Assembly: GCA_004299705.1 (NCBI GenBank)
Contig: SCQS01000041.1
Span: forward strand, 1 to 62,398
Length of the DNA: 62,398 bases
Source of the DNA: Rhodanobacteraceae bacterium
Lineage (GTDB): Bacteria; Pseudomonadota; Gammaproteobacteria; Xanthomonadales; Rhodanobacteraceae
Direction: 5' to 3'
Made by a program: the position numbers and the translations under genes. The number at the start of each line of letters is the position of its first letter. The stretch's first letter is position 1. This document shows, piece after piece, positions 42,133-50,884 of the stretch. The notes under the pieces are model-generated. The model saw only the letters and a list, made by a program, of their open reading frames with translations. It ran no database searches and was not told where the DNA came from.

Positions 42133-44118
42133 ATGGCCAACGCAATGCCCACGGGGTTCCATGCGTCGCAGGTTCTGCGCGCGGTGACGGAAAAGCGTGG
42201 CATCGACACGCTCGCGCCGCACATCGAGCGTTCCTGGAACCGCTGCCTGCACGAGTTCGGCATCCGTCCGCAGACGCCGCGTGACACTTGGGTACTGCCC
42301 GCCACCGGCCTGCGCGCACGCCAGCAGGAACTGGGCGGACTGCTGAACGTCGCGCGCTGCGAAATGGAAAATCTTTATGAATTGATTGCCGGCACCGGTT
42401 ACGCGGTGATCCTGTCCGACGCCGACGGCACCATCCTCAGCACAATTCTCGATTCCACCCTCAAACGCGAGTTTCAGCGCACCGGTCTGTGGCTGGGCGC
42501 GCGCTGGGACGAGCGCCACGAGGGCACCAACGGCATCGGCACCTGCCTCGCCGAAGGCAGCGCGGTCACCGTGCACCGCGACGAACACTTCCGCGATTAC
42601 AACATCCGCCTGTCTTGTTCGAGCGCGCCGATCCTTGATTCACACGGCAAGCTGCTGGGCGCGTTGGACGCGTCCTCGGCCAACAGTTCCGACACGCGCG
42701 CGATCCAGCGCCATACCGTGGCGCTGGTCAGCATGTCGGCCAGCATGATCTCGCGCTACCAGTTCCTGACCGAGTTTCGCGACGCCTGGATCCTGCGCTT
42801 CCACAGCCGCCCCGAGTTCGTGGGCCTGCTGCACGAGGCGTTGATGGCGATCGGCGGCGACGGCCGCGTGCTGGCTGCGAACGAAAGCGCACTGCTGCAA
42901 TTGGGTGTCGGTTCGCGCGCGGCGCTGGTCGGGCATCCCATCGATGAGCTGTTCCGCTTCGCTGCCGACACCATGCGCCAGCGTGCCGCGCATGCCGCCG
43001 CCACCATCTGGCCGATCCGCGACCTTGCGCGCGGGCGCCGTTTCTATGCGCTGGTGCAACCGCCGCACGCCCCGCACCCGGCATCCGGCGCAACTGGCAA
43101 ATCGCGAGCATCGATCGGTGATCCACTGCCGGGACACGTGGCGCTCGACCCGCGGATGCGACGCAACCTGGCCTCGGGCCACCAGTTGTTTGCCAAGCAG
43201 GTACCGATCCTGCTGCGCGGCGCGACCGGCACGGGCAAGGACGTGTTTGCGCGTGCGTTGCACGCGGGCAGCCTGTGGTCGGATCGTCCGTTCGTCACCG
43301 TGAATTGCGCCGCGATCCCCGAAAACCTGATCGAAAGCGAATTGTTCGGTTATCGCGCCGGCGCCTTCACTGGTGCTTCGCATGAAGGCCGCGCCGGCAA
43401 GATCCTGCAGTCGAGCGGCGGCACCCTGTTCCTGGATGAGATCGGCGACATGCCGATGCTGCTGCAGGCGCGCCTGCTGCGGGCCATCGAGGCGCGCGAA
43501 GTCACCCCGATCGGCAGCGACCAGGCCATCCCGGTCGACCTGCACGTGATCAGCGCCACCCACCGCGACCTGCGTCAGATGATTGCGGCGCACGAGTTTC
43601 GCGAGGATCTCTACTACCGTCTGGCCGGCACCACACTGGAACTGCCGTCACTCCACGAACGCGAAGACAAGGGCGACCTGATCCACGCGCTGCTGCGCGA
43701 GGAATGCGGCGACGAGGAACCGGTGGACATCGCCGCGGATGCGTTCGCCAGCCTGCTGCGCTACCTCTGGCCCGGCAACATCCGGCAATTGCGCAACGTG
43801 CTGCGCACTGCCGCCGCGTTGTGCAGCGACCGCATCATCCGGCTGTCCAACCTGCCGCAGGAAATCGTGGACCCGGAAGAAACCAGGTCGGCGGCGCCGG
43901 CCGAGGTGGCGCAGGCCACGACGGTCGAACAACCTGCGGTAAGCCTGCAAGGCGCGGAGCGCGCGGCGCTGGTGGGCGCGCTGGAACAGCACGACTGGAA
44001 CGTCAGCCACACCGCGCAGGCACTCGGGATCAGCCGCAATACGCTTTACCGCAAGCTGCACAAGCACGGTGTCATGCCGCACCCGCAAGCCGGCGACGAT
44101 CGCCCCGCGTCAGGCTAA
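42133..44118 (+). CDS. Sigma-54-dependent activator, AcoR-like
   Basis: A 661-residue enhancer-binding protein. The N-terminal sensory part (about 75-200) is GAF-like with GTNGIGTCLAE and LSCSSAPILDSHGKLLGALD, as in AcoR-type regulators of acetoin and alcohol use. The AAA+ domain has Walker A GATGTGKD (363-370), the sigma-54 contact loop GAFTGA (410-415) and Walker B LFLDEIGD (432-439). A Fis-type helix-turn-helix closes it (NVSHTAQALGISRNTLYRKL). GGAGG upstream supports the start. Its place beside the xoxF/formaldehyde genes and the sigma-54 promoter of xoxF make it the likely regulator of that operon. Confidence 0.9.
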   Translation: MANAMPTGFHASQVLRAVTEKRGIDTLAPHIERSWNRCLHEFGIRPQTPRDTWVLPATGLRARQQELGGLLNVARCEMENLYELIAGTGYAVILSDADGTILSTILDSTLKREFQRTGLWLGARWDERHEGTNGIGTCLAEGSAVTVHRDEHFRDYNIRLSCSSAPILDSHGKLLGALDASSANSSDTRAIQRHTVALVSMSASMISRYQFLTEFRDAWILRFHSRPEFVGLLHEALMAIGGDGRVLAANESALLQLGVGSRAALVGHPIDELFRFAADTMRQRAAHAAATIWPIRDLARGRRFYALVQPPHAPHPASGATGKSRASIGDPLPGHVALDPRMRRNLASGHQLFAKQVPILLRGATGTGKDVFARALHAGSLWSDRPFVTVNCAAIPENLIESELFGYRAGAFTGASHEGRAGKILQSSGGTLFLDEIGDMPMLLQARLLRAIEAREVTPIGSDQAIPVDLHVISATHRDLRQMIAAHEFREDLYYRLAGTTLELPSLHEREDKGDLIHALLREECGDEEPVDIAADAFASLLRYLWPGNIRQLRNVLRTAAALCSDRIIRLSNLPQEIVDPEETRSAAPAEVAQATTVEQPAVSLQGAERAALVGALEQHDWNVSHTAQALGISRNTLYRKLHKHGVMPHPQAGDDRPASG

Positions 44119-44288: not shown

Positions 44289-44867
44289 TCAGGCCTTGAG
44301 CACACCCGATGCCTTCGCGGCGTGGGTGGCGACGATGTCCATCAGTTCCGGCGAATAGCAGTCATAAGGTTCGATGCCCAGTTCGCGCAACCGCCCGCGA
44401 ACCCAGGCCATGTCGCCCGGCGGCACGCCGCCCTCGATCGCTGAGGACACGAACGCGGCGAACGTCGGCGGCGCCCAGCCCGCCTGGGTTGAAAGTTCCG
44501 GATGGATGAAGGCGAAGCCATGGAATACGTGATCCGTCTTGTCGACCACGCCGTACATGTGCACGCCGCAATCCTTGCAGGCGTAGCGATGCAGCACCTT
44601 GGAAGGATCGGCGATCTTCAGTTTCTCCGCGTGCTTGGTCACCTTGACCTTGTCGCGCGGCACCGCCGCCAGCATCGAGAACGTCGCACTGCCGGGCTTC
44701 CAGCACTGTGTGCACCCGCACAGGTGGTTGAACAGGAATTCGCTGTCGACCGTGACCTCGACCGGATCGGTCTTGCACTTGCAAGCCAGCGTGGCGCCCT
44801 TGAAGCCGGGTTGCGCCTTGATGTTGACGCCAGCGTCGACCGCCGGATGGATGGAATGCTTGGCCAT
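44289..44867 (-). CDS. gfa: S-(hydroxymethyl)glutathione synthase (Gfa)
   Basis: Gfa-family zinc protein, 192 residues, proposed to speed the adduct of formaldehyde with glutathione. Cysteine zinc ligands: C29, C31, C50, C52, C55, C97 and C100 (ACKC, CGCTQC, CKDC). GGAGGATT upstream of the ATG. It is the last gene of the xoxF operon and feeds the dehydrogenase encoded next to it. Confidence 0.92.
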   Translation of the reverse strand: MAKHSIHPAVDAGVNIKAQPGFKGATLACKCKTDPVEVTVDSEFLFNHLCGCTQCWKPGSATFSMLAAVPRDKVKVTKHAEKLKIADPSKVLHRYACKDCGVHMYGVVDKTDHVFHGFAFIHPELSTQAGWAPPTFAAFVSSAIEGGVPPGDMAWVRGRLRELGIEPYDCYSPELMDIVATHAAKASGVLKA

Positions 44868-44897: not shown

Positions 44898-46856
<1,959 letters not shown>

Positions 46857-46898: not shown

Positions 46899-47735
46899 TC
46901 ATTGCACGCCCGCCACGCCCGGGCTGGGACTGCCCGATGCCGCGCCCGGATAGTGCACGCCGTGCGCTTCGAGCGCGCGGGTCAGTTCGTCCTGGTGCGC
47001 CTTGATCACTCCGTTGAGCTGGTCCAGCAAGGCCTTGTTGCCTTCACGCACGCCCATCGCCATCGGGAAGGTGTACTGCTCGGGCGGACCCATGTCGCGT
47101 TCGTTCGGCACCATCACGACCGCAAGGTCGGGGTAGTCCTTGAGGAACGCGCCAACCGACGGCTCCCACGTGATCATCACGTCGACCTTGCCGTCCTGCA
47201 CCGCCTGCAGCATCGCGCGCGGTGATTCACCCGGCGTGCCCGCAACGTCGAAGGGAGTGGCGGTCGTGACCATGCCGCGCAATTGCAGGCCCGTCTCGAT
47301 CGGCGTTTCGGATTCGAACCCGATCTTCAACCGGTGCAGCGCGGGCGAGTCCAGGCTGGTGATGTCGTAGCCCTTGGACTTCTTGAAGATGAACACGTAG
47401 GACGACACGTACCACGGATTGGTGGTTTGTTCTTCCTGGCTGCCGTAGGGCAGGCTCATCACCACGTCGCACTCGCCCTTGTCGAGGGTCTGTGAAAGGA
47501 ATTGCGAGAAACCGCCCTTGCCCCGGGTGTCGTACCACGTGTACTCGAGCTTGTCGTGCAGCGCGTCGGCGACGATCCTGGCGGCGGCATTCTCGAAGCC
47601 TTGCCCCGCACGATCCGAATACGGCAGGTACGCCGGATCCGAACATACCCGCAACGTACCTTCCGCGCGGGCGCCCATGGCGCCCGCGAGAAGACCCACC
47701 GCGACGACCGCAACAACCGGCCACCGATATTTCAT
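46899..47735 (-). CDS. xoxJ: XoxJ-like periplasmic binding protein
   Basis: A 278-residue solute-binding-fold protein with a signal peptide (VVAVVAVGLLAGAMGARA) and LRVCSDPAYLPYSDRAGQGFENAAARI near the mature N-terminus, as in MxaJ/XoxJ. Proteins of this family are always found beside PQQ methanol dehydrogenases and are thought to help activate them. The ATG at 47735 has AGGGAG upstream. It lies between xoxF and the cytochrome gene, the standard order. Confidence 0.9.
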   Translation of the reverse strand: MKYRWPVVAVVAVGLLAGAMGARAEGTLRVCSDPAYLPYSDRAGQGFENAAARIVADALHDKLEYTWYDTRGKGGFSQFLSQTLDKGECDVVMSLPYGSQEEQTTNPWYVSSYVFIFKKSKGYDITSLDSPALHRLKIGFESETPIETGLQLRGMVTTATPFDVAGTPGESPRAMLQAVQDGKVDVMITWEPSVGAFLKDYPDLAVVMVPNERDMGPPEQYTFPMAMGVREGNKALLDQLNGVIKAHQDELTRALEAHGVHYPGAASGSPSPGVAGVQ

Positions 47736-47754
47736 GGCTGCTCCCTGGCCGTCT

Positions 47755-49674
47755 TCAGTGGGTGGTGGTTTCGGCGACATTCTCGGCTTTCGCGCCCGTG
47801 ATGGCCGCGCTCTGGCCAACCGTTTGCGATGGCAAATTGTGATCCGGGATGTCGTTGTCGCCGAGCGCGAACACCAGCAGCGTGCCGCCGAGGTTCGTGA
47901 ATTGCGGCAGGGTCGCGGTTGCGTTCACCGCACCCAGGCCGGCCGTAGCCTTGGTCAGGCCGTTGCTGAGGCCGATCGCACCCCAGCCGCCGACGCCGGT
48001 CAGGATCGCAACGTACTGCTTGCCAGCATGCGTGTAGGTGATGGGATTGCCGACGATGCCGGACGGCGCCTTGAACTGCCACAGTATCTTGCCGGTCTTC
48101 AAGTCGACCGCGCGGAACCAGCCGGTGAGGGTTCCGTAGAACCCGATGCCGCCCTTGGTCGTCAGGATCCCGCTCCAGTCCTGGTACTGGTCGTTGATCG
48201 CCCACTTGGTCTTGCCCGTCATCGGGTCGAAGGCAATGAAGCGGCCACCGACCTTGCCGTCCCACGGGGCGTTGGTGGGCCGATACATCCGCACGATTGC
48301 GCCGACGTACGGGAATCCGGCCTTGTACTTCGCCGCGAACGCCTGGTAGTCCTCGCAGATCAGGTTGGTGCCCATGTAGAACAGCCCGGTGTTGGGGTCA
48401 TACGATCCCGGCTGCTCGTCCTTGCCGCCCTGGGACCCAGGGCAGATGTCCTTCACGTTCACGCCTTGCTTGGTCATCTTGGCCGGGTTGACGATGGGTC
48501 GGCCGGTCTTGAGGTCGATGGCCTTCGCCCAATTCAGATCCGGGATGAAGGAGTGCGCGGCATAGAGATGGCCGGTGGCTGCGTTGAGCACGTAAGCGTG
48601 GCCATTGCGATCGAAATGCGTCAGCGTCGTGACGTCCTTGCCGTCGATCCTGGTCTGCGTGATGATCGACTCGTTGACGCCGTCGTAATCCCAGCCGTCG
48701 TGCGGGGTCATCTGGTATGCCCACGCGGCTTCCCCCGTATCCGGGTTGCGCGCGATGATCGACATCGACCACTTGTTGTCGCCGGGGCGCGCGGTCGGGT
48801 TCCACGTACCCGGATTGCCGGTGCCGTAATAAACGAGATTCAACTTCGGATCGTACGAATACCAGCCCCACGTCGTGCCGCCGCCCAGCTTCCACTGGTC
48901 GCCCTTCCAGGTCTTGAGGCTGGAATCCGCGCCCACCGGCTTGCCGGTCGCCGCATTGATGGTCTTGTTGGGATTGAACAGCAGATCCTTGTCGGGGCCT
49001 TCGCTGTAGGCCCGCCACATCAGCTTGCCGGTGTGGATGTTGTAGGCGGTGAGGTATCCACGCACGCCGTATTCGGCACCCGACACGCCGGTCAGCACCT
49101 CGTCGTGGATCACCAGCGGCGCCATCGTCATGGTCTGGCCGATCTTCGGATCGGCATTCTGCTCATGCCAGATCACCTTGCCGGTCTTGGCATCGAACGC
49201 ATAGATGTTGCCGTCCAGCAGGTTCGCGAAGATCATCCCGTCGGCGTACGCGACGCCACGGTTGACCACGTCGCAGCACGCCACCGTTTCCGCGAACGCG
49301 TCCTGCGGGATGTTGGATTTCCACACGATCTTGCCGACGTTGCTGAGGTCGACGGCATACACGTAGTTCGGATACGAGCTCTCGAAATACATCATGTTGC
49401 CGACCACCAGCGGCTGGCCTTCCTGGCCGCGCAAGGTACCGGTCGACATCGTCCACGCCACGTGCAGGTTCTTGACGTTGGTCGTGTTGATCTGGTCAAG
49501 CGCGCTGTAGCGCGTGACCGAGTAGTTGCCACCGGGCATCACCCACTGATCGGGGTTCTGCGACATCTGCTGCAGCGATCCGGCGGACTGGGCGCCCGCA
49601 CTTGCCGCGAACAACGTCAACAATGCCGCACTCAACAGTGCGAGTGGAAAATGCCGAACCGGTAACGCAGCCAT
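47755..49674 (-). CDS. xoxF: Lanthanide-type PQQ methanol dehydrogenase XoxF
   Basis: Periplasmic eight-bladed propeller quinoprotein, 639 residues with signal peptide, that oxidises methanol to formaldehyde. The vicinal disulfide Cys133-Cys134 (VACCDVV) and metal ligands Glu201 (SGAEYG) and Asn287 (GTGNPGTW) are visible. The catalytic Asp329 is followed two residues on by Asp331 (WDYDGVNE). That second Asp marks lanthanide-dependent XoxF; calcium MxaF has Ala there. GGAGG precedes the ATG at 49674. A sigma-54 promoter lies about 75 bp upstream. No PQQ synthesis gene is in the window. Confidence 0.95.
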   Translation of the reverse strand: MAALPVRHFPLALLSAALLTLFAASAGAQSAGSLQQMSQNPDQWVMPGGNYSVTRYSALDQINTTNVKNLHVAWTMSTGTLRGQEGQPLVVGNMMYFESSYPNYVYAVDLSNVGKIVWKSNIPQDAFAETVACCDVVNRGVAYADGMIFANLLDGNIYAFDAKTGKVIWHEQNADPKIGQTMTMAPLVIHDEVLTGVSGAEYGVRGYLTAYNIHTGKLMWRAYSEGPDKDLLFNPNKTINAATGKPVGADSSLKTWKGDQWKLGGGTTWGWYSYDPKLNLVYYGTGNPGTWNPTARPGDNKWSMSIIARNPDTGEAAWAYQMTPHDGWDYDGVNESIITQTRIDGKDVTTLTHFDRNGHAYVLNAATGHLYAAHSFIPDLNWAKAIDLKTGRPIVNPAKMTKQGVNVKDICPGSQGGKDEQPGSYDPNTGLFYMGTNLICEDYQAFAAKYKAGFPYVGAIVRMYRPTNAPWDGKVGGRFIAFDPMTGKTKWAINDQYQDWSGILTTKGGIGFYGTLTGWFRAVDLKTGKILWQFKAPSGIVGNPITYTHAGKQYVAILTGVGGWGAIGLSNGLTKATAGLGAVNATATLPQFTNLGGTLLVFALGDNDIPDHNLPSQTVGQSAAITGAKAENVAETTTH

Positions 49675-49748
49675 GGTCGAACCTCCGTGCAAGACAGGAG
49701 TGGTGGATTGGCCGAACGATGCCGGCCGCCGCGAAGTCAGTGTCTTGG

Positions 49749-49766
49749 TTGCAGATTGCGTGCCAA
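49749..49766 (-). promoter_or_regulatory. Sigma-54 promoter of the xoxF operon
   Basis: The minus strand reads TTGGCACG-CAAT-CTGCAA. GG and GC are exactly ten bases apart, and the match to TGGCACG-N4-TTGCA differs at one base. Initiation is expected near 49740, giving a leader of about 65 bases. Confidence 0.8.
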
Positions 49767-49824
49767 GCCCATGCTCGATCGCAGCCCGCAAATTCAATCG
49801 CTTGCAAGCGTGCGTCCGATGATG

Positions 49825-49886
49825 TGCGACACACCGAGAGGACATTGCGCCAATTGCGCGACACTGTTGTGTCGCGTGCGTGACAC
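49825..49886. promoter_or_regulatory. Putative enhancer sites for the sigma-54 activator
   Basis: A perfect inverted repeat CGCGACAC-TGTT-GTGTCGCG lies at 49857-49876, about 125 bp upstream of the predicted start. Further half sites are TGCGACAC (49825-49832) and GTGACAC near 49880. Position and symmetry fit an upstream activating sequence bound by a dimeric enhancer-binding protein. It lies between xoxF and the divergent fghA and could serve both. The rest of 49675-50035 shows no gene. Confidence 0.65.
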
Positions 49887-50035
49887 TTGCAAGGGAATCC
49901 AGGGACAGACGAGGAAGCGGGGAGATCGCGGGCGTGCTGTTCGGCACGCATTCAAATAAACCGGCCGGCAAGCGCAAGTCGCAGCCGCGAAATGGTGCAT
50001 ACTGAAAAACCACTCGGCTGCAGCATGGCAGGGCA

Positions 50036-50884
50036 ATGACGATCGAAACCATTTCCGAACAACGCTGCTTCGGCGGCACCCAGGGTTTCTATCGTCACGA
50101 GTCCCGCGCCTGCGCGGGGCCGATGAACTTCGCGGTGTTCACGCCACCGCAGGCCGCGCAAGGCAAGGTGCCGGTGCTGTTCTACCTCGCCGGCCTCACC
50201 TGCACCCAGGAAACCTTCCCGATCAAGGTCGGCGCGCAGCGCGTCGCCGCCGAACTCGGCCTGATGCTCGTCGCGCCCGACACCAGCCCGCGCGACACCG
50301 GCATTCCGGGCGCGACCGGCGACTGGGAAGTCGGCGAGGGCGCGAGTTTCTACGTCGACTCCACCCAGCCGCCGTGGTCGTCGCGCTTCCGGATGGAAAC
50401 ATATGTCGTCGATGAATTGCCGGCGCTGATCGCCGAACACTTTCCTGCCGATTTCACGCGTTGCGGGATGATGGGCCACTCGATGGGCGGCCACGGCGCG
50501 CTGACGCTGGCGCTGCGGCATCCGGGGAAATACAGGTCGCTGTCGGCACTCGCGCCGATTTCGTCACCGACCCGGGTGCCGTGGGGCGAACGCAGGATTT
50601 TCGTGATGTACCTCGGCAGCGACCGCGCGGAATGGCAACGCCACGATGCCTGCGAACTGCTGCGTGCGGGCGCGCGCTTTCCCGGCACCATCCTGGTCGA
50701 CCAGGGCGAGCAGGATCCGTACCTCAAGGAACAACTGCGGCCCGACCTGTTGCAACAAGCCTGCGGCGAAACGGGGCAAGCGCTCACGCTGCGCATGCAT
50801 CCGGGTTATGACCACAGCTACTGGTTCGTGCAGAGTTTCATCGAGGACCACCTGCGGCATCATGCGGCGACGTTGTGCGCCTGA
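50036..50884 (+). CDS. fghA: S-formylglutathione hydrolase
   Basis: Esterase-D-family hydrolase (282 residues) that releases formate and glutathione from S-formylglutathione. The nucleophile is Ser149 in GHSMGGHG. LAGLTCTQETF and APDTSPRDTGIPGA at the N-terminal half and the terminal His in GYDHSYWFVQSF complete the family pattern. It is divergent from xoxF and completes the methanol-to-formate route. Confidence 0.95.
   Translation: MTIETISEQRCFGGTQGFYRHESRACAGPMNFAVFTPPQAAQGKVPVLFYLAGLTCTQETFPIKVGAQRVAAELGLMLVAPDTSPRDTGIPGATGDWEVGEGASFYVDSTQPPWSSRFRMETYVVDELPALIAEHFPADFTRCGMMGHSMGGHGALTLALRHPGKYRSLSALAPISSPTRVPWGERRIFVMYLGSDRAEWQRHDACELLRAGARFPGTILVDQGEQDPYLKEQLRPDLLQQACGETGQALTLRMHPGYDHSYWFVQSFIEDHLRHHAATLCA

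Follow-up and report, generated by a model that had tools for sequence, protein, structure and literature searches.

Predicted sigma-54 control of xoxF by a linked EatR-type activator in Rhodanobacteraceae

Conservation, co-occurrence, a motif that recurs at unlinked promoters, and a joint loss of activator loop and promoter strongly support the prediction that xoxF is under sigma-54 control by a linked activator in Rhodanobacteraceae. In the window analyzed here (the whole stretch of 62,398 nucleotides, positions 1 to 62,398 of contig SCQS01000041.1, GenBank assembly GCA_004299705.1, Rhodanobacteraceae bacterium), sigma-54 RNA polymerase would transcribe xoxF from a −24/−12 site at 49750 to 49765. 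We infer that xoxJ, cytochrome c, adhC, and gfa share the transcript behind xoxF and that an EatR-type activator, bound to two 18-bp dyads at 49846 to 49885 that are spaced by two helical turns, reaches the polymerase through DNA looping, perhaps with the help of IHF at 49792 to 49804. An aldehyde is the most likely signal for the activator's GAF-PAS-like sensor, with formaldehyde as the best guess, and flux through the pathway would then itself induce the cluster. For the model as a whole, i.e., xoxF transcription by sigma-54, the activator on the dyads, and an aldehyde signal, we estimate a probability of about 0.87. By contrast with this model, xoxF is usually described under lanthanide or two-component control, and, to our knowledge, no clear account exists of its induction outside the recognized methylotrophs.

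The gene cluster, its activator, and the likely signal

The xoxF gene (47755 to 49674, minus strand, 639 aa) is predicted to encode a lanthanide-type PQQ methanol dehydrogenase. The best structure matches of its product were XoxF structures (6oc5, E 3e-212), and its WDYDG motif aligns with WDFDG of 6oc5, including the second Asp two residues past the catalytic Asp, a feature of lanthanide methanol dehydrogenases. Behind xoxF on the same strand follow genes for a xoxJ-like periplasmic binding protein (46899 to 47735; TIGR03871, just under the cut-off, with the start picked by eye within an ORF at 46899 to 47819) and a c-type cytochrome (46040 to 46852; PF13442), and then adhC, encoding S-(hydroxymethyl)glutathione dehydrogenase (44898 to 46025, 375 aa; TIGR02818), and gfa, encoding S-(hydroxymethyl)glutathione synthase (44289 to 44867; TIGR02820). 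Divergent from xoxF lies fghA, encoding S-formylglutathione hydrolase (50036 to 50884, plus strand; TIGR02821); the matches of adhC, gfa, and fghA were all above the cut-off, and no sigma-54 site scoring at least 8 was found upstream of fghA in the window. Several of the long ORFs scanned are probably antisense artefacts. Many relatives' clusters also carry a TonB-dependent receptor gene near the activator, between the activator and gfa/adhC (19 of 33 sequences searched matched, copies included; e.g., L094:11964-14444 and L066:9474-11780). Its product is a candidate lanthanide or lanthanophore receptor, and there is no such gene in the window.

Beyond gfa, and oriented towards it, an EatR/AcoR/DhaR-like sigma-54 activator is encoded at 42133 to 44118 on the plus strand (PF00158, PF25601, and PF02954). 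Its AAA+ domain has the Walker A motif GATGTGKD, the Walker B motif GTLFLDEIG, and GAFTGA at residues 410 to 415, and a Fis-type HTH follows (PF02954, E 1.7e-12), so the AcoR-like activator with an intact loop described in an earlier, sequence-only reading of this DNA was indeed found there. That reading had also given the activator a GAF sensor. Pfam could not serve as proof of this domain, as no GAF match was obtained at E ≤ 1, while the predicted fold of residues 1 to 330 (pLDDT 88.5) had its best PDB matches in DhaR(N), the sensor half of E. coli DhaR (Foldseek E 3e-15 to 4e-14 over 311 to 320 columns, 18% identity). DhaR(N) is a GAF-PAS pair. The domain arrangement differs from that of DhaR, since the TM-score was about 0.5 and the rmsd about 15, and DhaR is said to work with DhaK/DhaL, not with sigma-54. 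The fold thus supports a GAF-PAS-like sensor at the activator N terminus. The window genome also encodes a paralogue of the activator (38% identity), which adjoins exaC in a neighbourhood that includes a PQQ alcohol dehydrogenase (L082:6059-13982, contig C8). This locus has a −24/−12 match scoring 10 at L082:8131 and a palindrome, TGTCGC-N5-GCGACA, and the xoxF-type dyad is absent from the paralogue's intergenic region (best score 2.3).

Homologues in Pseudomonas and Azotobacter share 44 to 49% identity with the window activator. In the 20 loci chosen from 80, the gene divergent from the activator was in every case exaC, encoding acetaldehyde dehydrogenase, with eutB nearby in 17; in one of them (L147), an ethanolamine permease, ExaC, and EutB were recognized by family models. 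From this gene neighbourhood, rather than from the EatR sequence, the Pseudomonas homologues are probably EatR (PA4021), which, according to the consulted portion of a review, requires sigma-54 and senses acetaldehyde (PMC5821096). The system before us resembles that of the Pseudomonas ethanolamine promoter in its predicted sigma-54 control, its dyad motif, and its homologous activator. It differs in that EatR has ethanolamine/acetaldehyde gene targets and an acetaldehyde signal, that the homologues' dyads are mostly 33 to 34 bp apart, and that the Pseudomonas-type loop is GSFTGA (49 rows), whereas that of the window activator is GAFTGA. Moreover, the window activator is linked to xoxF, adhC, and gfa, not to the ethanolamine genes that would mark an EatR orthologue.

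Formaldehyde is our best guess for the signal because EatR, the nearest characterized relative by gene neighbourhood, is a reported acetaldehyde sensor, because the in-genome paralogue adjoins exaC, and because one genome (G046) retains the activator with fghA-adhC-gfa and without xoxF. A serious contender, which we place somewhat short of even odds, is that sigma-54 control is right and the activator answers methanol, another alcohol, or lanthanide status. The sigma-54 activator BmoR answers alcohols, as stated in the portion of PMC6366067 consulted, the cluster starts with a lanthanide enzyme, and relatives' clusters often hold the TonB-dependent receptor gene, but the same three observations, on EatR, the paralogue, and G046, speak against such a signal.

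The xoxF promoter and its upstream dyads

The −24/−12 element TGGCACGCAATCTGCA (49750 to 49765, minus strand) matches the consensus at 11 of 12 positions and lies 75 bp upstream of the xoxF ATG at 49674, where the sequence-only reading had placed a GG-N10-GC promoter, and it is conserved in relatives. Calculated from the −12 position, the predicted +1 is at approximately 49739, giving a 65-nt leader. Among random 460-bp segments, the best score reached at least 11 in 0.9% and at least 10 in 2.8%. A single match proves little, however, because the window held no more −24/−12 matches with up to two mismatches than shuffles did (11 versus a mean of 16.1). The exact sequence TGGCACGNNNNYTGCW occurs nine times in the 3.62-Mb genome, and among these sites only that of xoxF has upstream dyads, with scores of 15.0 and 8.0 compared to at most 6.4 for the others, although the matrix used here was trained on a set that included the xoxF promoter, making this an in-sample comparison. 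RpoN is encoded in the window genome (PF04552 over the cut-off) and in all 16 genomes tested. Between promoter and dyads lies an IHF-like site at 49792 to 49804 (minus strand; ATTCAATCGCTTG as read on the plus strand), which matches WATCAANNNNTTR at 8 of 9 positions (p = 0.010 versus shuffles). Across 16 scanned promoters, the best IHF-like match was similarly placed in the majority, and in 10 it reached no more than 7 of 9 positions, which is suggestive only of an IHF site between enhancer and promoter.

Further upstream, a perfect palindrome with 8-bp arms, CGCGACAC-TGTT-GTGTCGCG, was found directly at 49857 to 49876, about 127 bp before the predicted transcription start. It had been read from the sequence as the enhancer, with conservation of both it and the promoter in relatives as a check. 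Its location was confirmed and the −24/−12 site is kept, but the palindrome was not found in the eight other close xoxF upstreams inspected, of which three belong to the window's genus, and it was rejected as a conserved enhancer. The conserved feature is rather a pair of 18-bp dyads, TGTnnC-N6-GnnACA, which a palindromic EM search identified and which lie mostly 22 to 23 bp apart, and the palindrome corresponds approximately to the inner halves of such a pair, i.e., the right half of dyad A and the left half of dyad B. Predicted dyad B, TGTCGCGCAATTGGCGCA (49846 to 49863, minus strand), is centred at about −115 and had p = 0.002 with a matrix from adhC and distant-xoxF promoters only and p = 0.007 with its own genus left out; it is similarly placed in L066, L067, and L068. 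Predicted dyad A, TGTCACGCACGCGACACA (49868 to 49885, minus strand), lies 22 bp from dyad B with its centre at about −137 and was the second-best site in the window, with scores of 12.4 and 12.5 for the leave-genus-out and transfer matrices, respectively. That the perfect palindrome itself is the activator binding site is decidedly unlikely: its perfect arms, its 18-bp core with a single exact copy in the 3.62-Mb genome, and its suitable distance favor the idea, but the dyads persist in the eight upstreams from which it is absent.

Raw EM likelihood was discarded as evidence for the dyads, as the DNA upstream of the activator genes gave a comparable likelihood for a different palindrome, which 17 of 24 held-out loci carried at p ≤ 0.01 (24 activator loci chosen). 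Since raw motif scores were thus not decisive, transfer tests were used. When one genus at a time was left out, the held-out promoter had a dyad at p ≤ 0.01 in 26 of 29 cases. With adhC and distant-xoxF promoters as the only training set, sites (p ≤ 0.01) were found in all 13 close xoxF promoters, the two best dyads being 22 to 23 bp apart in 12 of them. In the reverse transfer, the matrix trained on close xoxF promoters found dyads in 12 of 21 other promoters and failed at nine, including that of Steroidobacter L128 (leave-one-genus-out p = 0.347). The same matrix detected no dyads at the 10 valid loci whose promoter score fell short of 10, four of which came from activator-bearing genomes, with L213 at p 0.018 and L215 at p 0.012. 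The palindrome upstream of the activator genes, which differs from the dyads, is AAATGYTGCRSTGCAGTT-like, resembles a PhaR box, and is conserved in L070, L072, L073, L093, L095, and others; it was not found in the three tested loci of the window's genus.

Conservation, co-occurrence, and joint loss

It is comparison among relatives that reveals the predicted promoter and dyads, shows both to be conserved, and ties them to the activator. Across 233 Rhodanobacteraceae genomes, XoxF (cut-off E ≤ 1e-140) was present in 37, the activator (at least 56% identity) in 35, and both in 30, a co-occurrence with a Fisher p of 5e-26, uncorrected for relatedness; activator candidates came from 36 genomes, the sole one below 56% being that of G050 (43%). 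Before xoxF, a −24/−12 score of at least 10 of 12 was found at 24 of 29 loci from activator-bearing genomes and at 1 of 7 from activator-lacking genomes. These tallies count loci, not genomes, ignore relatedness, and cover the 36 testable of 40 xoxF rows (L173, L175, and L229 begin inside the gene and L177 has 30 bp upstream). For close xoxF genes (at least 65%), the site scored at least 10 in 15 of 16 testable loci, between −91 and −114 relative to the aligned start, and the sixteenth (L068) scored 9 at the same place. The lone activator-lacking locus with a site belongs to G003, a draft genome of the window's genus, which retains promoter and dyads and in whose assembly the activator was not found. 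G215 has an intact loop, and no site of at least 10 was found within 320 bp of its xoxF, with one at −324. Thirteen distinct adhC upstreams not directly behind xoxF were also scored. Five (L075 and L087 to L090) reached 11, four of them with dyad pairs 21 to 23 bp apart, and the other eight were below 10 (three with altered-loop activators, L098 with a score of 9, and four from Xanthomonas). Distant xoxF-like genes linked to the same activator family were also seen in Xanthomonas (L095, L104, and L105), with −24/−12 scores of 11 and, in L095 and L105, dyads 35 bp apart.

The motif also recurs in the 20 Pseudomonas/Azotobacter loci, none of whose DNA was in the matrix training. A dyad at p ≤ 0.01 was found before the gene divergent from the activator in 13, while the test failed at the other seven, including L147 with weaker dyads (p = 0.060). 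The stretch scanned holds a −24/−12 match of at least 10 at every one of the 20 loci, and this match lies before exaC in 18; those in L133 and L150 fall inside exaC. All 20 homologues and the window activator have one and the same recognition helix, SRNTLYRK. It is therefore very unlikely that another regulator binds the dyads. Although G003 has dyads and no activator found in its draft, the motif is found at xoxF, adhC, and Pseudomonas exaC promoters alike, this activator family is what those promoters are known to have in common, and the recognition helix does not vary across the activators of those promoters.

The loop that would contact sigma-54 was GAFTGA in 6 of the 35 family activators (the window, G004, G015, G001, G266, and G215). 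Another 25 had GAFTDA, and the remaining 4 (G023, G046, G120, and G254) had altered loops. Among loci with a testable xoxF, the xoxF site was present in 24 of 26 with GAFTGA or GAFTDA activators versus 0 of 3 with altered loops, and in G046, which has no xoxF, no sigma-54 site was found before adhC or fghA. In a tree of 42 activator rows, from which the partial activators L080, L231, and L239 were excluded, the altered-loop activators formed one clade (support 100/99), so the joint loss of loop and sites was counted as one event and the idea of independent losses was dropped. With a −24/−12 site conserved at a fixed place and tied to activator presence and loop, and with no sigma-70-type match found in 49600 to 50100, there is only a slim chance that a lanthanide or two-component switch, the usual description for xoxF, acts at an unseen sigma-70 promoter and that the −24/−12 match is fortuitous, even if some sigma-70 promoters escape simple scans.

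Within the altered-loop clade, L091, L092, and L079 have a dyad before fghA (p ≤ 0.003) without a sigma-54 site. Dyads before xoxF2 in this clade are weak (p 0.02 to 0.24). Since fghA of the intact-loop genome G266 likewise has a dyad and no site of at least 10, the dyad at fghA may already have functioned independently of sigma-54 at the time of the loop loss. TAGAAT is conserved about 50 to 60 bp after the dyad upstream of fghA in L092, L091, and L079, and is possibly a sigma-70 −10 box in this clade without the sigma-54 loop. The GAFTDA loop of the 25 activators is identical to that of the NorR G266D mutant, which, in the section of PMC2941729 consulted, escapes GAF repression, and a survey, as far as its consulted text goes, counts GAFTDA as one of the variants in which activity would be retained (PMC4641369); the window activator differs from NorR G266D in that its own loop is GAFTGA. 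Tentatively, and at less than an even chance, a formaldehyde-sensing EatR-type activator would place xoxF in a single regulon with the glutathione formaldehyde pathway, product-induced rather than switched by methanol or lanthanides, in which most relatives carry a GAFTDA loop and one clade abandoned sigma-54, losing the loop and the −24/−12 sites and keeping the fghA dyad.

Relation to known systems and meaning

Two further known systems resemble the one proposed here. The butane monooxygenase regulator BmoR is a sigma-54 activator with an alcohol signal and an inverted repeat far upstream, according to the excerpt of PMC8899819 consulted. It is alike in being an alcohol-answering sigma-54 activator with a far-upstream inverted repeat, and differs in serving another enzyme and in having its UAS 193 bp from the −24/−12 boxes (PMC8899819, same excerpt). 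Soluble methane monooxygenase is under sigma-54 control through MmoR, and xoxF is described under rare-earth control, in the portion of PMC5874634 consulted. Here the likeness is a C1 oxidation operon under sigma-54, and the difference is that MmoR governs the methane step rather than methanol dehydrogenase. Alcohol, aldehyde, and methane genes are thus already known as sigma-54 targets. No report of sigma-54 control of xoxF was found in that open-access literature, most subscription papers lying outside it and the sources being covered in part, and the suggestion that such control may be undescribed holds for this scope and not beyond it.

The clade with the joint loss of loop and promoter would be an example from nature of an enhancer-binding protein that has parted with sigma-54. 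With a named activator, candidate sites, and a promoter in cultured genera (Dyella and Rhodanobacter), the question of xoxF induction becomes directly testable. In the Rhodanobacteraceae, bacteria of soil and water, xoxF appears to be switched on via sigma-54 by a neighbouring activator that resembles an aldehyde sensor.
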